From positions 532,001 to 596,000 of the forward strand of contig CP014609.1 in NCBI GenBank assembly GCA_001586195.1: a stretch of DNA of 64,000 bases, read 5' to 3'. The notes beneath the pieces were generated by a model, which was not told the origin of the DNA, ran no database searches, and saw only the letters and a list, made by a program, of their open reading frames with translations. Shown here in pieces: positions 33,274 through 61,367 of this stretch. Every line of letters starts with the position of its first letter. Position 1 is the stretch's first letter. The stretch comes from Solibacillus silvestris. Its GTDB lineage: Bacteria > Bacillota > Bacilli > Bacillales_A > Planococcaceae. Made by a program: the position numbers and the translations under genes.

Positions 33274-33834
33274 ATGATCCATTCATTTTTACTTAGTATG
33301 ATTGCTTATTGCACTGTGAGCTTCCCGATTTATTGCATATTGCGAATGTTTTATATGAAAAATAAAACAAAAAGTGCAAGGCGCGAGTTGGTGATGCTCC
33401 TATTCTTCTTTTACAGTATCAGTATTTTTTCACAAACGATTATCCCAAGCTTCCAAATCTCAAATGGACAGATCATTTTTGATACTTCCAGCGCATATGT
33501 GCGCAGTAATTTCACCCCATTACAAACAATTATGCTGTATTATGATCAATTGAATGGACCATTGGCAAATATCGCATTTTATAATTTGGCAGGCAATATT
33601 GTCCTGTTTATTCCTTTTGGCTTCTTTATTCCGCTGTTATGGAAAAAATTTAGAGGATGGCGCATCATGCATATCGTTGCATTCGCAATTCCCTTATTTA
33701 TTGAAAGTACCCAATATTTTATTGGTCGTAGTATAGATGTCGATGATGTATTATTAAATGCAATTGCCATCGTGATAGGATTTGTGCTCTTCAAAATATT
33801 CCGGAGATTACGTAAAATGAGCGCGCCAAAGTAA
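33274..33834 (+). CDS. VanZ-like family membrane protein
   Basis: A 186-residue membrane protein with four to five hydrophobic segments. The VanZ-like core is recognisable in NLAGNIVLFIPFGFFIPLLW and the later FIESTQYFIGRSIDVDDVLLNAIAIVIGF. VanZ confers low teicoplanin resistance, but most relatives have no known role. GGAGGTG precedes ATG 33274; a further ATG at 33259 overlaps this site. It lies between murE and prfC. Confidence 0.88.
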   Translation: MIHSFLLSMIAYCTVSFPIYCILRMFYMKNKTKSARRELVMLLFFFYSISIFSQTIIPSFQISNGQIIFDTSSAYVRSNFTPLQTIMLYYDQLNGPLANIAFYNLAGNIVLFIPFGFFIPLLWKKFRGWRIMHIVAFAIPLFIESTQYFIGRSIDVDDVLLNAIAIVIGFVLFKIFRRLRKMSAPK

Positions 33835-33900
33835 AAAAGGTTGTAACAACTGACTGTTGTCTTTTAAAATAAGAAAGTATGAAAAAAGGAGACGAAATTA

Positions 33901-35472
33901 ATGACTTTAGAACAAGATATATTAGCGCGTCGTACATTCGCCATCATCAGTCACCCGGATGCCGGTAAAACGACGATTACAGAAAAGCTACTATTATTCG
34001 GTGGTGCGATTCGTGACGCAGGAACAGTAAAAGGTAAAAAATCAGGAAAGTTTGCAACATCTGACTGGATGGAAATCGAGAAACAACGTGGGATTTCGGT
34101 TACATCTTCTGTAATGCAGTTCGATTATTCAGATTGCCGTGTAAATATTCTGGATACACCTGGGCACCAAGACTTCTCGGAAGATACGTACCGTACGTTA
34201 ATGGCTGTAGACTCGGCTGTCATGGTAGTCGATGCAGCTAAAGGGATCGAGGCACAAACATTAAAGCTATTCAAAGTTTGTAAAATGCGCGGTATTCCTA
34301 TTTTTACGTTTATCAACAAATTGGACCGTCAAGGGAAAGAGCCATTAGAGCTTATCGAAGAATTAGAAGAAGTGCTTGGCATTAACGCGTACCCAATGAA
34401 CTGGCCAATTGGTATGGGGAAAGAATTCCTTGGAATTTACGACCGTTACAACAAACGTATCGAACAGTTCCGTGTAGAAGAAGGTGACCGCTACTTACCA
34501 CTTGATGAAGACGGGCATTTAGCCATTGACAACGATATGAAAAAAACATCGTACTATTCACAAGCTATCGATGATATCGAACTTTTAAATGAAGCTGGTA
34601 ATGCGTATTCAGAGGATAAAATTGCACGTGGTGAATTGACACCTGTATTTTTCGGTTCTGCATTAACGAACTTCGGTGTTCAGACATTCCTTGATACGTA
34701 TTTAAAATTTGCACCGATTCCTCAGCCTCGTATTACAGAAGATGAGCAATTTATCGATCCTGTAGAGCATGGCGAGTTTTCTGGCTTCATTTTTAAAATT
34801 CAAGCGAATATGAATCCGGCTCACCGTGACCGTATCGCATTCGTGCGTATCGTATCGGGTAAATTTGAGCGCGGTATGAATATGACACTTTCACGTACAG
34901 GTAAATCTTTCAAAGTAACACAGTCAACACAGTTCCTTGCAGATGATCGTGAAACAGTAAATGAAGCGGTTGCAGGTGACATTATCGGTCTTTATGATAC
35001 AGGGACGTATCAAATCGGGGATACAGTAGTCGGCGGTAAGAAAACATTTAACTTTGAAAAACTACCTCAATTCACACCTGAAATTTTCATGAAAGTTTCG
35101 GCGAAAAACGTAATGAAAGGGAAGCAATTCCAAAAAGGTGTGCTTCAATTAGTACAAGAAGGTGCAATTCAGTATTTCAAAACAATGCATACTGAAGAAG
35201 TAATCCTTGGTGCGGTTGGTCAATTACAGTTTGAAGTATTCCAGCACCGAATGATTAACGAATACAACGTGGAAGTAATTATGCAGCCGATTGGCAGTAA
35301 GATTGCACGTTGGATTGAAAATGAAGAAGATGTGAAAGATTCAATGCACTCTCAACGTTCAATGCTTGTAAAAGACCGTTTCGATAATAAAGTATTCTTA
35401 TTCGAAAATGAATTTGCAATGCGTTGGTTCTCAGAGAAGAACGAAAACATTCAGTTATACAGCTTGTTATAA
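33901..35472 (+). CDS. prfC: Peptide chain release factor 3
   Basis: A 523-residue translational GTPase that removes release factors 1 and 2 from the ribosome after termination. G1 is SHPDAGKTT (about residue 17), the switch region shows [18 protein letters not shown]3 is DTPGHQDF, and G4 is NKLDRQ. Domain 3 ends with [15 protein letters not shown]. The length is close to Escherichia coli RF3 (529 aa). AAAAAGGAGACG precedes ATG. It is followed by a terminator and then by the first 21-bp repeat array. Confidence 0.96.
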
Positions 35473-35488
35473 TTTGATATTAAAAGCC

Positions 35489-35526
35489 CCGGTAATTTTC
35501 TGCGAAGGAAAATTGCCGGTTTTTTT
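35489..35526 (+). terminator. Terminator after prfC
   Basis: CCGGTAATTTTC/GAAAATTGCCGG is a 12-bp stem (one G-U) with a 7-nt loop and a run of seven T. Confidence 0.93.
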
Positions 35527-35559
35527 GTGTTTGGAGCTGTGATGTGATGCGGGGGTGCT

Positions 35560-36067
35560 GAGTTGGGCTGGGCGTGGTGTTTATTAGAAGTTTAGAGCTG
35601 AAATGTAGAACGGTGGACGGGGGAAGTAGAACATTTCCGGGAGAAAGTAGAACGAATCATTGGGAAAGTGGAAAGAAAGCGGGAGAAAGGAGAACCCGGA
35701 AATTAATTAGAAGTTTCGGGTTGAAATGTAGAAACTAGAACGAGAAAAGTAGAACATTTCCGGGAGAAAGTATAACGAATCATTGGGAAAGTGGAAAGAA
35801 AGCGCGAGAAAGTAGAACCCGGAAATTAATTAGAACTTTCGTGCTAAAATGTAGAAATTAGAACGAGAAAAGTAGAATATTTCCGGGAGAAAGTAGAACA
35901 AATCACCCGGAATGTAGAACAAAAGCGGGAGAAAAGTAGAACCCGGGAAATTAATTAGAACTTTCCAGCTGAAATGTAGAAATTAGAACGAGAAAAGTAG
36001 AACATTTCCGGGAGAAAGTAGAAAGAATCACCCGGAATGTTGAAAGAAAGCGCAAGAAAGTAGAACT
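35560..36067. repeat. 21-bp-periodic TAGAA array, four higher-order copies of about 123 bp
   Basis: After a GAGTTGGGCTGGG leader, about 23 TAGAA(C)-type units start at 35585, 35606, 35627, 35648, 35669, 35690, 35708, 35729, 35750 and so on to 36061. Nearly all steps are 21 nt. One short step of 18 or 19 nt at TTAATTAG closes each block of six. Blocks begin near 35581, 35703, 35826 and 35951. Common words are GTAGAAC, TTCCGGGAGAAAG, GAATCA and AACGAGAAAAG. Stops occur in the repeated frames, so it is probably not coding. It lies between the prfC terminator and the convergent NRDE gene. Confidence 0.9.
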
Positions 36068-36098
36068 TATCGCCATCCCCAAACTCCTCTTCATATGC

Positions 36099-36863
36099 TC
36101 ATTCCTCCGCATCAATATGGTAAGACCGGTCAAATTTATAATTACCGTTCTCATATGTACGTTCAAGAAAATCGATCTCCCCATTATTGTGATAAACAAT
36201 GGCTGTCGAGCAGCGAGTACCATAATTAGGAATTTTAACAAATTGAGCGGATAAGGACCTTTCTAGATGGATACCTACACCAGTATTTGGCAATACTTCA
36301 TCTTGTGCGATTTCATCATTTGCCAATAACGGTATTAAACTGTTTACTTCAATTGTGTCTTTATCGGTTGCTTTTTCCAATATGTGCTTTGCGGTTTCTA
36401 CTTTTGGCCATGGTGTATTGAAAGTAGCGTTACTGACACCGTGAATGCCGCTTTCTACAATGCGGTGTTCATCGTAAATATTATTGTAATGATGCATGTC
36501 TTCGCCGTCGTAAAGCAGGACATTAAAGCCGCCGTACAAATCTCTTTTTGAACGAAGAGACTGAATAAATGAGTCTGTCGATTCCGTTGAAGTTAAAAAC
36601 AGCCGTACAATTTCGCCGCGTGACAATTGGCCGGTTTCAGGAAGGCGCGGGTCACGGTAATTTGTAATTGCAGCAAAACGACCACTTTTCGACAGCCCCA
36701 TCCAGCTTCCTTGCTGACGTAAATCCCGTCCGGCTAATATGTCAGATTCATCTTCCCAAAAATGGGCGGCGGCTGTCGGACGGTCATAAAATTCGTCACG
36801 ATTTGCAACAATGATGAGCGGATATGCTGGATGAACTTTATAAGAAAATGCAATTAAACACAT
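36099..36863 (-). CDS. NRDE family (TANGO2-like) protein
   Basis: A 254-residue member of the NRDE/TANGO2 family. The name-giving motif is IIVANRDEFYDRP near residue 15, with the free N-terminal Cys2 (MCLIAF) typical of N-terminal nucleophile-like folds. Other family blocks are LAGRDLRQQGSWMGLSKSGRFAAITNYRDP and GVHGVSNATFNTPWPK-like sequence. TANGO2 relatives are linked with haem trafficking and Golgi organisation; the bacterial role is unclear. The start is ATG 36863 after CGGGG; the longer frame to 36905 would displace Cys2. The gene converges on prfC across the repeat array. Confidence 0.88.
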   Translation of the reverse strand: MCLIAFSYKVHPAYPLIIVANRDEFYDRPTAAAHFWEDESDILAGRDLRQQGSWMGLSKSGRFAAITNYRDPRLPETGQLSRGEIVRLFLTSTESTDSFIQSLRSKRDLYGGFNVLLYDGEDMHHYNNIYDEHRIVESGIHGVSNATFNTPWPKVETAKHILEKATDKDTIEVNSLIPLLANDEIAQDEVLPNTGVGIHLERSLSAQFVKIPNYGTRCSTAIVYHNNGEIDFLERTYENGNYKFDRSYHIDAEE

Positions 36864-37065
36864 AGATAGACCCCGTTTCTTGAATAGCAGGCAAGAAAAA
36901 TTCACTGGAATTCACTAGATCGAGTGCTTAACTCCTGCCTACCTTGTATGATTTTTTGTAACATTTTGCTGTAGTAACATAGTTTCTGTCAAATATTAAA
37001 GGGAAATAGATAGCTCTACACGAATTTTAATTAATATGAAGATAAATTGAAAGGACTTTCCACCG

Positions 37066-40000
37066 ATGAATATAAGTAAGTTTTCTATAAAACGCCCGGT
37101 TTTTACAATTGTTTCAATGATTTTTGTATTAATACTCGGTGCAGTTTCATTATTTAAAATTCCAGTTACGTTAATACCTGATTTAAATCCGCCGATTGGA
37201 GTTGTTGTGACAAGCTATCCGGGTGCAAGTCCGATTGAAGTAAACGAAAAAGTGACAAAGCCGCTTGAAGCTTCGCTGGCGACATTGCCGGGGATTAAAC
37301 GAGTGCAGTCGACATCGCTGGAAAGCTCGAACCTGATTATTTTGGAATTTGATTGGTCAACAAGTATGGATGATGTGCAAACCGACATATTACAGCGAAT
37401 TGATCTTGTTCCACTTCCTGAAGATGCGGGGAAACCAAGCTTTTTGAAATTTGATCCTTCGCAATTTCCGGTCATCCAAATGGCGCTCGCAGCAGAAAAT
37501 GAAGAAGTCGATATCCGTCAAATCGCTGAATCACTTGAACAGGAATTGCAGCGGACTGAAGGGGTGGCAAGTGTAACCGTTTCAGGTGAAATTGTAGAAG
37601 AAGTACAGATTGAGCTTGATGCCGGGAAGCTTGAGGAGAATAATTTGACGCAAAATGATGTGATGCAAATTATCCAGGCAAGCAATATTTCGATGCCGGG
37701 AGCTGAGCTAAGTACAAATGAGAATCAGCTGTTAACGACTCGAGTAGTCAGTTTATTTACAAGTCCGGAAGAAATAGCGAATGTTGCGCTTTCGGTCAAC
37801 CCATTAACAGGTGAAGCAATAAAAGTTAAGGATATAGCGACTGTAGAACGCAAAGAACAGGAAACGAATACAATTACTCGAGCAAATGACCAACAGGCTG
37901 TCCTCATTTCGGTTTTGCAGGAGTCCGGGGCAAATACTGCAAATGTTTCCGAAACTTTTCAGAAGGAACTTGGTCAATTATTGGATGAGCCCCAGTATGA
38001 TGGAGTTGATGCAACAATTTTATTTGATCAAGGGGATTATGTTCGCTTAGCAATTGGTAATATTAGCTCCTCGCTTATTTTTGGCGGGCTATTTGCGATG
38101 CTTGTGCTTTTCGTCTTTTTATCCGGAATAAAAAGTCCGCTTATTATTGGCATTGCGATTCCGTATTCGGTTATCGTAACCTTTGTACTTATGTTTTTTG
38201 CGGACTTTTCTTTGAACATTATGACACTTGGTGCCCTTGCCCTTGGAATCGGGATGCTAGTGGATAATGCCATTGTTGTTATAGAAAATATTGAGCGACA
38301 TTTAGAGCTTGGTGAGAATCCGAAAGAAGCGGCAGCCAATGGAACGAAGGAAGTAGCTTTAGCCATTACCGCTTCTACTGTCACGACGATTGCAGTTTTC
38401 GTACCGGTCATTTTTATAAGTGGGTTAATTGGTCAAATTTTTGTGGAATTCGCGTTAACGATTTCATTTAGCTTAATTGCCTCACTATTTGTGGCACTGA
38501 CGGTTGTACCGATGCTGGCAAGCCGCTTCTTACGTACAAAGCCTTCGAATGTAGTAAAGAAGCGTCAAGATTCATGGCTGTACCGAAATTATACGAAAAT
38601 ACTTAAATGGGGCTTATCGAGACGAGCCCTTATTTTATCAATTACCATCGTCTTAGTCGGTATATCCGGCTTTATGGTATATAAAACAGGTACAGAGTTT
38701 TTGCCGCCGACTGATGAAGGATTCGTATCTTTGTCCGTTGAGCTTCCAAACAGTGCAACAGTTGAAAAAACAGAACAAATTGTTTCAGAAATCGAGGAGA
38801 TGGCAAAGCAATATGAAGAAGTTGATGTAGTGGTCAGTTTAATTGGAGGGAATCAGCAATCTTTATCGCGGGGTACTAGTGAACAAAATGAAGGGGAGAT
38901 TTCAGTTAAGCTCGTTGAATTATCGGAACGAGATCGCTCCATATTCGAGTTTGTTGAGCTTTTTGAAAAACAAGTGCAACAGCAGATCGGAGAGCGTGCA
39001 GAAGTGAATTTCTCGCTTTCATCTTCTTCAGGTTCAACACCGAACTCATTAACATTTCGCGTGACAGACAGCAATGAGTCTCAGCTGAAAGAAACGGTCG
39101 CTTCCATCCAGCAACGTATTGCAAAGATTGATTCGGTTACCGAGGTAACGACTGATTTGGATGAAGTTCAAGAGGAAATACAAATTGAAGTAAATCGTGA
39201 TAATGCACTTCAATATGGGTTAATGCCCGCACAAATTGCTCAAACCGTCAATATGATGACACGAGGCGCATTTACAACACAGATCATTGCCGAAGATGGT
39301 GAAGTGCTAGGTGTATATACTGGATTCGGAAAAGCATACCGTGAAGATGTAGAAGCACTTAAAACGATGAAGCTTAGAACAAATGCGGGGGTGTTTGTCG
39401 AACTGCAGCAGCTGGCATCGGTTGAAATAAAAGAAACCCAAACGGCTATTCGAAGATCGGATCAGGCATCGGCCGTAGCCGTGTTTGTAAAATACAATAC
39501 ATCGGAGTCCCTTAGCGGCATTTCTAAGAAAGTGGATAATGCGATTGAAGAAGAAGGTATTCCTGCAACATCGAAAGTTGTTTTTGGTGGCGACCGTGAG
39601 CTTTTCGACAGTGCAAAACAAGATATGATACTGGCCATTCTGCTGGCTGTTATTCTTATTTATCTAGTAATGGGCGCTCAATTTGAATCCTTTAAGCTAC
39701 CGTTTGTGATGATGTTCAGTGTTCCGCTTACGGTTATCGGTGTCGCTGTTTCTCTGTTTGTAACTAATACATTGCTCGGTGTTACAGCCATTATCGGCAT
39801 CCTTATATTAGTGGGGATTGTTGTAAATAACGGCATTGTTCTTATTGATTATATTAATCAGAAACGACAGCTAGGATTAAATATAACCGAGGCCATTATT
39901 ACGGGTGCCCAGGATCGAATGAGACCAATTTTGATGACGGCTTTAACGACTATTTTAGGTTTGGTACCATTGGCATTGGGAATTGGTGAAGGTACAGAAA

Positions 40001-40113
40001 TGAATCAGCCAATGGCCATTGTCGTTATTGGAGGGCTGGTTAGTTCAACAGTTTTAACATTATTTATCGTACCGATCATTTACAGCCTGATTGAAAAGGA
40101 AGCAAAAGAATAG
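37066..40113 (+). CDS. RND efflux transporter (AcrB/SwrC-like)
   Basis: A 1015-residue inner membrane proton-driven exporter with 12 membrane segments and two large external loops. It begins KFSIKRPVFTIVSMI, has the proton-relay region GIGMLVDNAIVVIENIERH in TM4, then the second external domain, and GILILVGIVVNNGIVLIDY in TM10. Gram-positive relatives include SwrC (YerP) of Bacillus subtilis, which exports surfactin and aids swarming. No adaptor protein or TetR regulator gene is adjacent. A weak GAAAGGA precedes ATG 37066. The substrate is unknown. Confidence 0.92.
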   Translation: MNISKFSIKRPVFTIVSMIFVLILGAVSLFKIPVTLIPDLNPPIGVVVTSYPGASPIEVNEKVTKPLEASLATLPGIKRVQSTSLESSNLIILEFDWSTSMDDVQTDILQRIDLVPLPEDAGKPSFLKFDPSQFPVIQMALAAENEEVDIRQIAESLEQELQRTEGVASVTVSGEIVEEVQIELDAGKLEENNLTQNDVMQIIQASNISMPGAELSTNENQLLTTRVVSLFTSPEEIANVALSVNPLTGEAIKVKDIATVERKEQETNTITRANDQQAVLISVLQESGANTANVSETFQKELGQLLDEPQYDGVDATILFDQGDYVRLAIGNISSSLIFGGLFAMLVLFVFLSGIKSPLIIGIAIPYSVIVTFVLMFFADFSLNIMTLGALALGIGMLVDNAIVVIENIERHLELGENPKEAAANGTKEVALAITASTVTTIAVFVPVIFISGLIGQIFVEFALTISFSLIASLFVALTVVPMLASRFLRTKPSNVVKKRQDSWLYRNYTKILKWGLSRRALILSITIVLVGISGFMVYKTGTEFLPPTDEGFVSLSVELPNSATVEKTEQIVSEIEEMAKQYEEVDVVVSLIGGNQQSLSRGTSEQNEGEISVKLVELSERDRSIFEFVELFEKQVQQQIGERAEVNFSLSSSSGSTPNSLTFRVTDSNESQLKETVASIQQRIAKIDSVTEVTTDLDEVQEEIQIEVNRDNALQYGLMPAQIAQTVNMMTRGAFTTQIIAEDGEVLGVYTGFGKAYREDVEALKTMKLRTNAGVFVELQQLASVEIKETQTAIRRSDQASAVAVFVKYNTSESLSGISKKVDNAIEEEGIPATSKVVFGGDRELFDSAKQDMILAILLAVILIYLVMGAQFESFKLPFVMMFSVPLTVIGVAVSLFVTNTLLGVTAIIGILILVGIVVNNGIVLIDYINQKRQLGLNITEAIITGAQDRMRPILMTALTTILGLVPLALGIGEGTEMNQPMAIVVIGGLVSSTVLTLFIVPIIYSLIEKEAKE

Positions 40114-58000: not shown

Positions 58001-60175
58001 ATGACAATGAATATGGAAAAGGATCCGTTTTTTGATCCGGAACATGAGGAATTCGAAAATAGTACAAGTTACAGCAACGAGCTGCTTGAGGAAATCGCAA
58101 AGCCCCAGTACTACAATAACCGTGAACTGAGCTGGCTCGCTTTTAATGAACGGGTATTGGAAGAAGCGGAAGATACAAATAACCCGTTGTTGGAACGGAT
58201 GAAATTTTTGGCAATATTCAGTTCCAATTTGGATGAATTTTTTATGGTCCGGGTTGCGGGTTTGCAAGACCAAATTCGTGCTGGCTATCATAAACCCGAA
58301 AATAAATCGGGTTTAACACCGAAAGAGCAGCTTGCTAAAATTGCTGAACGTACGCAAGCATTGGTAAGACGCCAAACAGAAGTATATCGCCATTTAGTGT
58401 ATGAACTTTTACCGAAAGAAAGCGTGCATATACTTGATTTGAAAATGCTGAATGAGCAAGAAAAAAGTTATATTAATGAATTCTTTGAAGAAACGATTTT
58501 TCCTGTCCTTACACCTGTTGCGGTCGATGCCTACCGTCCGTTTCCTACATTATTAGGCCGTACGCTCAATTTATTTGTCATGCTGGAAAACAGCAATGAG
58601 GATTTAGAAAATACTCTGGATAAGGTCGCAATTGTTCAAGTGCCTTCTGTATTGAATCGTTTTATTAAAATACCATCAAAAAGTAAGGAAACGTTGTTTG
58701 TATTATTGGAAGATGTCATTTCAAGTAATATCGACCGTTTATTTTTAGGTTATAAAGTGAAATCGACACAAGCTTTCCGGTTAACGAGAAATGCAGATTT
58801 GACCATTCATGAGGAAGGTGCCCAAGACCTGTTAGTGGAAATTGAAAAGGAGCTGAAAAAGCGCAAATGGGGCGTCGGTTCACGTTTGGAAGTGCGAGAC
58901 GGTGAGATGAATGACGACGTGCTGGATTATTTACTAAATGAATTTGAACTGGGAGAGTCCGATGTTTTCAAAATTGATGGCCCGCTCGACTTAACGGCAA
59001 TGTTCGGCTTTGTCAAAGAGATTTCCGTAGGGCGGGAACATTTGGAATATGAAAGTTTTATTCCGCAGCCGCCTCATGATTTACAGTCGGACGAAAATAT
59101 TTTTGAAAAAGCGTTAACCCAAGATTTATTTTTCCATCATCCTTATGAATCATTTGGCCCGATTGTTGATTTTATTGCAGAAGCAGCGGAAGATCCGAGC
59201 GTTTTGGCCATTAAGCAAACACTGTACAGGGTGAGCGGAAATTCGCCGATTATTCAAGCTTTAAAGCAGGCCGCGGAGAATGGTAAACAGGTGACGGTTT
59301 TAGTAGAGTTAAAAGCACGCTTTGATGAGGAAAATAATGTGCATTGGGCGAAACAGCTTGAACAAGCTGGTTGCCTCGTCATTTATGGGATGAATAATTT
59401 AAAAACCCATTCCAAAATTACACTAGTTGTACGCCGACGCAATGGGAAAATTGAACGCTTTGTTCATTTAGGGACGGGCAATTACAATGATGCAACGGCA
59501 AAGATTTATACGGATATGGGGATTATTACATCGCATAAGGAATTCGGAATTGATGCGACAAATTTCTTTAATTATTTAAGCGGTTATACTGAAAAACCTG
59601 AATTTCATCATATTGTAGTCGCGCCTTTTGATATTCGGGATGAATTCCTAGATTTAATCGATAAGGAAATTGCGTTACATAAAAAATATGGAAACGGGTT
59701 TATCCGGGCAAAAATGAATTCTTTAACCGACAAGGAATTAATGATGAAACTGTATGAAGCGTCGATTGCAGGGGTGAAAATCGAGCTGATTATTCGTGGT
59801 ATTTGCTGTCTGCGTCCAGGCATCCCGGGGATTTCAGAAAATATAACTGTTTTGAGCATTGTTGGCCGTTTCCTGGAGCATTCCCGGATTTTCTGGTTCC
59901 ATCATAACGGGGAGGATAATCTATACTTATCTTCTGCAGATATGATGACCCGGAATATGATTAAACGTGTGGAGATACTGTTTCCCATCTATTCAACGGA
60001 AATAAAATACCGCATCAAGCGTATTATGCTGCTCCAAATTAAAGATAATCAAAAAGTGCGCATTCAGGATTCCAATGGAAAATACCACTATAAAGAAGGC
60101 CATCAAAGTGATCCCCGAATCAACAGTCAGGAAATTTTTTTAGCTGAATCACTCGGTCCGATTATTGAAGAATAG
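58001..60175 (+). CDS. ppk: Polyphosphate kinase 1
   Basis: A 724-residue enzyme that builds polyphosphate from ATP. N-terminal NRELSWLAFNERVLEEA, the head domain with FPTLLGRTLN, and the two phospholipase-D-like catalytic domains are all present. The autophosphorylated His lies in LKTHSKITLVVRR, and VHLGTGNYND and RGICCLRPG are typical. It starts two bases after the ppx stop. A terminator and then the second 21-bp repeat array follow. Confidence 0.96.
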   Translation: MTMNMEKDPFFDPEHEEFENSTSYSNELLEEIAKPQYYNNRELSWLAFNERVLEEAEDTNNPLLERMKFLAIFSSNLDEFFMVRVAGLQDQIRAGYHKPENKSGLTPKEQLAKIAERTQALVRRQTEVYRHLVYELLPKESVHILDLKMLNEQEKSYINEFFEETIFPVLTPVAVDAYRPFPTLLGRTLNLFVMLENSNEDLENTLDKVAIVQVPSVLNRFIKIPSKSKETLFVLLEDVISSNIDRLFLGYKVKSTQAFRLTRNADLTIHEEGAQDLLVEIEKELKKRKWGVGSRLEVRDGEMNDDVLDYLLNEFELGESDVFKIDGPLDLTAMFGFVKEISVGREHLEYESFIPQPPHDLQSDENIFEKALTQDLFFHHPYESFGPIVDFIAEAAEDPSVLAIKQTLYRVSGNSPIIQALKQAAENGKQVTVLVELKARFDEENNVHWAKQLEQAGCLVIYGMNNLKTHSKITLVVRRRNGKIERFVHLGTGNYNDATAKIYTDMGIITSHKEFGIDATNFFNYLSGYTEKPEFHHIVVAPFDIRDEFLDLIDKEIALHKKYGNGFIRAKMNSLTDKELMMKLYEASIAGVKIELIIRGICCLRPGIPGISENITVLSIVGRFLEHSRIFWFHHNGEDNLYLSSADMMTRNMIKRVEILFPIYSTEIKYRIKRIMLLQIKDNQKVRIQDSNGKYHYKEGHQSDPRINSQEIFLAESLGPIIEE

Positions 60176-60178
60176 TAG

Positions 60179-60224
60179 AAAAATTAAAGCTATGGACGAA
60201 ATGTTCAAAGCTTTTTAATTTTGC
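60179..60224 (+). terminator. Terminator after ppk
   Basis: AAAATTAAAGCT/AGCTTTTTAATTTT forms a stem of 10-12 bp with a small asymmetry and a 17-nt loop, within 5 nt of the stop. Confidence 0.7.
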
Positions 60225-60227
60225 CTA

Positions 60228-60440
60228 GAGCTGGGCTAGGGACGGTGGGATTTTATTAGAACAATTATGTAGGATATTAGAATAAAGAACTATGATTTTA
60301 GAAGATCTGAAGGTGATATTAGAACAAAGCGCATACATTTTAGAACATGTTGAAGATATATTAGAACATCATAATTTTATTAGAACAAATAAATTTATAT
60401 TAGACGATTAAATGATATATTAGAAAATCAGAATTTATCG
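60228..60440. repeat. 21-bp-periodic TTAGAA array (second copy of the element family)
   Basis: After the leader GAGCTGGGCTAGGGACGG, nine TTAGAA-type units start at 60256, 60277, 60298, 60319, 60340, 60361, 60380, 60400 and 60420. Steps are 21, 21, 21, 21, 21, 19, 20 and 20 nt. The spacers differ and are AT-rich, unlike the GC-richer spacers of the array at 35560. The leader matches that array. It lies between the ppk terminator and fadH; no gene is seen here. Confidence 0.85.
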
Positions 60441-60559
60441 CTCACTCCATTCCCTTTTAATAAGAAAAAACACTATAAAATCATTTAAAATTACGTGTAA
60501 GTGAGAAATATTTTATATTTTAGTATTTATTTCCCTCCTGTTATAGTAAACTCTATTTA

Positions 60560-60577
60560 TGAATGACTGTTCATTTT
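60560..60577. promoter_or_regulatory. FadR-type operator upstream of fadH
   Basis: TGAATGACTGTTCATTTT agrees with the Bacillus FadR consensus TGAATGAMTANTCATTCA at 15 of 18 positions. It lies 22 nt before the fadH start. FadR represses fatty acid breakdown genes until long-chain acyl-CoA is present. Confidence 0.75.
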
Positions 60578-60599
60578 ATATGCAAAGGGGATGTATGGA

Positions 60600-61367
60600 A
60601 TGTTACAAGGCAAAACGATTATTATTACAGGCGGCTCTAGCGGGATGGGGCTTGGTATGGCAAAGCAGTTCGTGAAAGAAGGAGCGAATGTTGTCATTAC
60701 CGGGCGTGACTTAGAGCGTTTGGCCAATGCAAAAAAGGAAATCGAGGAATTTGGGTCTTCAATCGAAACATTTCAAATGGATGTTCGAGAACCGGAACAT
60801 GCTCAGGCAATGGTGGCATATGCAGCTGAAAAATTTGGTCAAGTAGATGGCTTAGTGAACAATGCGGCAGGGAACTTTTTAGTGCATGCAGAAAAATTGT
60901 CGCCGAATGGATGGAAGGCCGTTATTGATATTGTGTTGAATGGAACATTTTATTGTACTTCTGCAATTGGTCGCTATTGGATTGAAAACGGTATAAAAGG
61001 TTCGATTATCAATATGGTGGCTACATATGCTTGGGGCGCAGGAGCAGGTGTCATTCATTCAGCTGCAGCAAAAGCCGGCGTGCTCTCGTTGACACGTTCG
61101 CTTGCGGTTGAATGGGGCGGTCAATATGGCATTCGCGTAAATGCCGTTGCACCAGGGCCGATTGAGCGAACAGGCGGAGCAGATAAACTATGGGAATCCG
61201 AAGAACAAGCGAAACGCACATTGGATTCTGTTCCGTTAAAGCGTCTTGGCACACCTGAGGAAATAGCTGATCTTGCTGCATTTATGCTATCGGATAAGGC
61301 AGGCTATTTAAACGGGGAATGTATTACTTTAGATGGCGGACAATGGCTAAATCAGCATCCGTTCTAA
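60600..61367 (+). CDS. fadH: 2,4-dienoyl-CoA reductase (FadH/YkuF type SDR)
   Basis: A 255-residue short-chain dehydrogenase that reduces 2,4-dienoyl-CoA with NADPH in unsaturated fatty acid breakdown. The nucleotide loop is TGGSSGMGLGMA, then NNAAGNFLV. Instead of the usual YxxxK, Tyr in ATYAWG and Lys in HSAAAKAGV are 15 residues apart, the spacing used by mitochondrial dienoyl-CoA reductase. This supports the specific call. ATG 60600 lies 9 nt after AAAGGGG; ATG 60591 is closer and less likely. A FadR-type operator is present upstream. Confidence 0.93.
   Translation: MLQGKTIIITGGSSGMGLGMAKQFVKEGANVVITGRDLERLANAKKEIEEFGSSIETFQMDVREPEHAQAMVAYAAEKFGQVDGLVNNAAGNFLVHAEKLSPNGWKAVIDIVLNGTFYCTSAIGRYWIENGIKGSIINMVATYAWGAGAGVIHSAAAKAGVLSLTRSLAVEWGGQYGIRVNAVAPGPIERTGGADKLWESEEQAKRTLDSVPLKRLGTPEEIADLAAFMLSDKAGYLNGECITLDGGQWLNQHPF

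Follow-up and report, generated by a model that had tools for sequence, protein, structure and literature searches.

The window, a 64,000-nucleotide stretch of contig CP014609.1 of Solibacillus silvestris, contains two intergenic arrays of short direct repeats phased at 21 bp (Table 1). The first lies between prfC and a convergent gene of the TANGO2 (NRDE) family, and its first TAGAA stands 65 bases beyond the end of the prfC terminator. Beyond the convergent gene, positions 37066-40113 (+) encode an RND-type permease of 1015 aa whose best NCBIfam matches fall under the curated cut-offs. Direct reading gives TAGAA at 35585, 35606, 35627 and 35648, followed by TGGAA at 35669 and GAGAA at 35690. 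These positions agree with the unit starts in the initial annotation of this DNA, which had counted about 23 TAGAA units. A path search resolves 24 slots, separated by steps of 5x21+18, 5x21+18, 4x21+22, 19 and 5x21 bp. The four 123-bp blocks described earlier were recovered by TRF (35583-36066, period 123, 3.9 copies, 87% matches) and start at about 35585, 35708, 35831 and 35956.

Table 1 Features at the two arrays of the window
Feature	Position	Strand	Evidence
prfC, peptide chain release factor 3, upstream of first array	33901..35472	+	NCBIfam equivalog, E 7e-244
prfC intrinsic terminator	35489..35526	+	stem 35489-35500 / 35508-35519, T run 35520-35526; sequence and terminator finder
First 21-bp array, GTAGAA flavour, 24 slots, four blocks	35585..36066	+	TRF, path search, shuffle test, genome-wide pattern
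TANGO2 (NRDE) family gene, convergent, downstream of first array	36099..36905	-	PF05742, E 1e-71
Polyphosphate kinase gene (ppk), upstream of second array	58001..60175	+	NCBIfam NF003920, above cut-off
Second array, TATTAGAA flavour, one terminal module	60257..60425	+	lag-21 identity 0.487 vs 0.337+-0.036, 0/2000 shuffles at or above
Short-chain dehydrogenase, 2,4-dienoyl-CoA reductase equivalog, downstream of second array	60591..61367	+	NF005811 above cut-off; PF13561

The comparison with shuffled sequence proposed in the initial annotation yielded a clear excess: lag-21 identity over 35560-36067 is 0.483, while dinucleotide shuffles average 0.298 (sd 0.020, maximum 0.380) and none of 2000 reaches the observed value. 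Since each of the four blocks is significant alone (0/1000 shuffles at or above in every block), this signal does not stem from block duplication. In the second array, TAGAA stands at 60257, 60278, 60299, 60320, 60341, 60362, 60381 and 60421. The sequence GAGYTGGGCT occurs at 35559 and 60227, 15 and 19 bases before the first TAGAA of the respective array, and the two arrays differ in flavour. It had been put forward as a leader; in 59 stretches of the same genome plus the window, the two window arrays are the only TAGAA rows that have it at a distance of 80 bases or less, and it is therefore not a general part of such arrays.

The array behind prfC, first described on its own, proved to be one of dozens in this genome, with the second array in the same window. 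The pattern TAGAA-N16-TAGAA-N16-TAGAA matches 73 times on the forward and 29 times on the reverse strand of the one contig covered (3,991,226 bp), and the reversed control pattern matches 0 and 0 times. Several flavours coexist in the genome, at least three by motif: GTAGAA, TATTAGAA and TGAGGATTA. The two prominent TAGAA flavours are AAAGTAGAA and TATTAGAA, the latter commoner than the GTAGAA type of the window, and the longest rows reach 29 slots by path search. The third flavour, TGAGGATTA, surfaced from a motif-blind scan and was found in 5 of 16 congeners (G000, G005, G006, G009 and G014). GTAGAA-flavour arrays crowd the region at 400-460 kb of the S. silvestris genome (L077-L082, L107), among surface-protein genes with S-layer homology domains; in G115, too, arrays lie beside similar surface-protein genes.

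Within the TATTAGAA flavour, 23 of 29 terminal modules consist of five 21-bp steps, then 19, 20 and a closing step of 20 or 21 bp, and they keep the 19-then-20 order despite unrelated first spacers. The 123-bp block thus holds for the window array and fails in the TATTAGAA flavour. Breaks of 18 or 19 bp also split the GTAGAA arrays of this genome, which indicates that the module structure is partly shared between flavours. In these modules the positions of TATTAGAA mostly carry 1.2-2 bits of information, whereas the centres of the first five spacers carry little; the closing spacers are rich in A+T and show partial conservation. Spacer GC skew is about +0.4 in units 0-2 and about 0 in units 3-4. 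As a speculation, the mean of about 20.5-20.7 bp per unit might track a helical repeat of about 10.3 bp.

What persists between genera is the period, while the motif changes. A motif-blind scan of intergenic regions at lags 12-39, run on genomes picked for having arrays, placed the best lag at 21 in 7 of 9 periodic regions of the own-genome sample, which takes in both known window arrays, in 10 of 21 in G042 and in 22 of 25 in G019 (probably Bhargavaea cecembensis), with some rows weak or low-complexity (e.g. L320, L372). A scan at lags 10-60 with a coding mask placed 2 of 2, 10 of 16 and 17 of 21 noncoding matches, respectively, at lag 21; 14 masked 'coding' matches of G019 are also at lag 21. 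As many as 22 of the 137 intergenic regions of at least 100 bp in the G019 sample hold a 21-bp lattice, and their motifs vary (GAATGTTAAGCAAA, GAAACGTTAATTAGC, AAAGATAACG, GAGTGAGCCGC and GAATAGATAGAA, among others), while the arrays of G042 are built on CGATAAA and GACGGAWAGAA. In G042 there is also a second, distinct kind of intergenic repeat, in tandem with a period of 34-37 bp and of the GCGAAAGCGAAGCGGCAGCAACAAATGTTTT type (L364, L365, L372, L376). The 400 kb sampled from each of the congeners G012 and G015 gave 3 and 2 noncoding periodic matches, 0 of them at lag 21; the few lag-21 matches of these genomes are coding.

Distances between intact cores reproduce a lattice, and not just a common helical face. 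Over 59 stretches of the S. silvestris genome they fall at 21 (207), 42 (144) and 63 bp (99), with 3 at 10-11 and 2 at 31-32; further distances correspond to the steps of 19 and 20 bp and to sums of these. The own-genome motif GAGGATTA and four Bhargavaea motifs have core distances of 21, 42 and 63 only; the motifs of G042 show breaks and their sums, 19 in GACGGA and, rarely, 20 and 22 in CGATAAA. The constraint on spacing that had been suspected from the degenerate units is supported.

The core itself is under selection, as between orthologous arrays spacers change 3.4 times as often as the TAGAA core. We compared 19 blocks of G000 and G005 aligned with their flanking genes, with slots defined on G000 (a mild bias) and with only non-overlapping alignments of at least 300 bp and 20 or more core bases retained. 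In the TTAGAA flavour, 46 of 925 core bases and 422 of 2490 spacer bases are changed (Fisher p 1e-22); in the GTAGAA flavour, 10 of 205 and 92 of 532 (p 4e-6), the sites in both tests being not fully independent. The DNA outside the arrays, mostly coding, has 4107 of 49,943 bases changed. These rates bear on a neutral minisatellite produced by replication slippage in two-turn steps, an origin that the plain block duplication in the window array would suit. We regard it as very improbable, for core and spacers differ in rate and one word turns up again at loci that are not linked and whose spacers bear no relation to each other.

Gene 3' ends are the favoured location of the arrays, though not without exception. 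In the blind sample they occupy 13 of 96 convergent, 22 of 278 tandem and 4 of 109 divergent regions (convergent versus divergent, p 0.012). The own-genome set of 42 loci, each with at least four chained cores and drawn from 39 stretches, divides under a crude ORF caller into 18 tandem sense, 14 convergent, 6 tandem antisense, 3 divergent and 1 unclassed. Among 60 loci of other flavours or genomes, ascertained by pattern, 18 are convergent, 12 tandem sense, 9 tandem antisense and 9 divergent; the remainder are possibly coding (8) or at contig ends (4). The sense bias at tandem loci is weak, 18:6 in the own genome (p 0.02) and 30:15 overall (p 0.04), and 15 of 45 tandem arrays are antisense to the upstream gene. 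By profile, the neighbours are ordinary genes (prfC, ppk, enolase, recA, RNase Y, SLH amidase). A replication-strand rule was discarded, since arrays beyond the terminus (about 1.55-1.6 Mb by skew over 20 sampled stretches) occupy both strands.

This placement could be explained at the RNA level, where the repeated word in read-through or antisense transcripts would be used by a protein or by Rho to stop or degrade stray RNA. The sense bias fits such a role, as do terminator-like sites, present on the same strand upstream at 23 of the 42 own loci and on the far side at 20, and the occurrence of Rho in all 16 congeners; yet Rho is also found in the array-free ones, the antisense arrays speak against it, and a helical lattice is of no obvious use in RNA. 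As RNA the arrays are largely unstructured. For the TATTAGAA flavour the plus strand gives z of 1.4 and 0.2 and the minus strand 0.2, with spacer-spacer pairing at or below chance, and a structured RNA is thereby rejected for this flavour. For the GTAGAA array of the window z is +1.1, -0.9 and -2.2 with the plus strand and reaches -3.9 with the minus strand in one stretch, folding that its duplicated CCGGG-bearing blocks may cause. The RNA role offered as an option in the initial annotation is therefore not supported as structured RNA in the TATTAGAA flavour and keeps one window stretch that folds beyond shuffles (-2.2/-3.9). Rfam returned nothing over the gathering score, either in 33800-37100, where one sub-threshold match lies over the terminator, or in 60100-60600, where one lies outside the array. 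Overall we hold an RNA-level function to be improbable.

A period of 21 nt also equals seven codons, and one TATTAGAA-flavour frame looks heptad-like by eye, with TTA GAA read as LExxxxI in a present or decayed coiled-coil sequence. Such coding is scarcely credible: stops are not depleted in this frame (21 against 14.3 expected in 23 TATTAGAA modules), and the 19-nt step breaks the frame while the DNA word is retained. CRISPR repeats measure about 23 nt or more and alternate with unique spacers of about 30 nt; here the period is 21 with a core of about 8 bp, in line with the earlier statement that the array is not a CRISPR. In TIGR-Tas systems the Tas protein carries a NOP domain. The NOP domain (PF01798) has 0 matches in the own genome, and TIGR-Tas was rejected on this ground; 4 of 16 congeners match it, 3 over the cut-off (frames of 413-440 aa).

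The arrays come and go between close relatives. By eye, 5 of 16 congeners have the prfC array (G000, G005 and G009, with partly degenerate copies in G006 and G014); the other 11 lack it, among them G010, whose PrfC is 99% identical. Matches to the triple pattern number 0 to 163 per congener, with at least one in 14 of 16, and of 261 genomes in the family, 147 match the triple and 85 the four-unit pattern, where single matches can be chance or coding; a search at the level of the order covered these same 261. The control pattern also matches in some genomes, at AAGAT-flavour arrays (G111, G115, G123, G019) and at a plain heptamer repeat (G047). The search for comparable arrays in related genomes, suggested at the outset, thus found them among congeners and across the family. 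The function of the arrays is not essential, as G012 and G015 live without them in the 400 kb sampled of each.

Such turnover raises the question of a selfish dispersed element of the REPIN type, multiplied by a cognate recombinase, vertically inherited and tolerated behind genes, with the core as its recognition site. REPs are described as short intergenic repeats with many copies and several families per genome, mostly downstream of genes or between convergent or co-directional ones (PMC3733652). The arrays share these several families, the 3'-end placement and a widely varying copy number, likewise described for REPs (PMC3733652), and the prfC array with its absence in G010 would suit an element of this kind. 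On the other hand, spacers are unrelated between loci, so that recent copying is not seen save for local block duplication, and the core is conserved at fixed orthologous places, unlike a dead insertion. Moreover, the TATTAGAA flavour is without palindromes or folding, and the Y1 (RAYT) transposase PF01797 has 0 matches both in the own genome and in G006, which is rich in arrays; 9 of 16 congeners have one. Inverted core pairs within 70 bp were not found for the own GAGGATTA, four Bhargavaea motifs and one G042 motif; raw counts, taken without a chance baseline, are 57 among 1286 [GT]TAGAA sites and 6 among 164 CGATAAA sites. A selfish origin is therefore unlikely in our view.

The reading we favour, tentatively and at a little under an even chance, is that the arrays are rows of asymmetric direct sites for cooperative DNA-binding proteins, forming a boundary behind transcription units. 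Short asymmetric sites every two helical turns would place proteins side by side on one face of the DNA and in contact, and the bound proteins could form a filament or a wrapped nucleoprotein tract. Cooperative binding along one face fits better than an RNA function because the word is asymmetric, the spacers are free, the ruler is two turns, the orientation is direct and 15 of 45 tandem arrays are antisense. A conserved core, free spacers and helical spacing are the marks of a cooperative array, and the arrays show all three; among the ideas of the initial annotation the cooperative DNA-binding array is the best reading of these features; its segregation protein, in the sense of parS, is unlikely given dozens of loci in several flavours. 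The location at gene 3' ends suggests a boundary, which may stop read-through or antisense polymerase or hold transcription-driven supercoils. Several observations fit this reading less well: no reader protein was found by profile or among the ORFs beside arrays, G012 and G015 do without arrays in the stretches sampled, the sense bias is not required of a pure DNA element, 12 divergent loci lie outside the blind sample (3 of 42 own, 9 of 60 others), and the 18-20 bp module breaks would rotate the face by up to a quarter turn.

Several flavours in one genome suggest several readers of one family. Each flavour might have its own reader, drawn from related proteins whose footprint stays at two turns as their preferred sequence shifts. 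A broader form of this proposal, possible rather than probable, is a class of chromosomal elements defined by period, in which two-turn lattices behind genes with an exchangeable word would serve related readers of the same footprint as parallel boundary or packaging systems within a genome. The profiles of NOP, Y1 transposase, Rho and the AraC family (PF12833, 4-10 per genome in all 16 congeners, with 7 in array-free G012 and 4 in array-free G015) were compared, and none separates array-rich from array-free congeners. Among 437 ORFs beside arrays, the only broad recurrent cluster is a surface-protein group (SLH, LysM, SH3) with 7 source labels, two of them from G115, which we read as a product of gene abundance and the S-layer region, and not as a reader.

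The arrays resemble several known systems in part. Plasmid iterons and AraC/XylS operators are direct asymmetric sites about two turns apart, with AraC half-sites at 21 bp, and to our knowledge AraC/XylS is the only family with 21-bp direct repeats. In contrast, the present rows reach 29 slots, occur at dozens of places on the chromosome after genes unrelated to one another, and lack the context of a promoter or replicon. BIMEs are placed at gene 3' ends, as are the arrays. E. coli BIME arrays are reported to be bound by gyrase and IHF (PMC2267715), and a similar role as protein-binding sites may apply here; BIMEs are built from palindromes, whereas in the arrays the word changes between and within genomes and the period stays. 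The REP/REPIN-RAYT systems (PMC3733652; see also PMC3116915 and PMC8049555) likewise comprise many short intergenic repeats in several families with 3'-side placement. Their units are palindromes of 20-40 bp mobilised by RAYT, unlike direct, non-palindromic rows on a strict 21-bp lattice in a genome without its own Y1 transposase. Nearer in taxonomy, the bcr1 repeat of the Bacillus cereus group is described as a dispersed intergenic repeat of 147-167 bp with a conserved stem-loop (PMC2267715); the arrays are also dispersed intergenic repeats in Bacillaceae, but have no common fold in the flavour tested.

The arrays as a phenomenon are solidly established. No title or abstract on 21-bp intergenic arrays was found in the searches, which covered mainly open-access literature. 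None of the repeat families compared with the arrays combines a fixed period with a changing word. If the proposed reading is true, some Bacillales chromosomes would carry a hidden layer of organisation, and the arrays would offer a system for studying gene-end insulation, the co-evolution of proteins and sites, and why close relatives manage without arrays. For annotation, array tracts yield spurious short ORFs.

A scan of named species returned at least 120 stretches, and of the 80 listed, 20 were inspected by eye. These comprise 14 Bacillales arrays (in Ureibacillus, Lysinibacillus, Bhargavaea, Bacillus, Sutcliffiella, Neobacillus, Rossellomorea and Salipaludibacillus), 1 Cellulosimicrobium array, 3 (TAGAACC)n heptamers, 1 coding stretch (Neobacillus massiliamazoniensis) and 1 from Xenorhabdus without clear class. 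The heptamer runs, in Shewanella and Pseudoalteromonas records (L146, L169, L180), fit the 21-bp pattern for the sole reason that 21 is a multiple of 7. The actinobacterium Cellulosimicrobium has 21-bp rows of GAGATAGAACC or GAGGTAGAACC (L171, L208), possibly the same class far beyond Bacillota. A plasmid search with the window array gave no match, and the Bhargavaea motif had 0 matches in viral contigs. The four-unit KTAGAA pattern matched 98 stretches of viral contigs; long or open-ended frames account for 39 of the 80 listed, and the other 41 fall outside such frames. Twelve of these 41 were viewed, and several are short-period or near-identical 21-bp tandem repeats. In some viral contigs (L402, L414, L415) the near-identical 21-bp tandem repeats end in TTAGAA.
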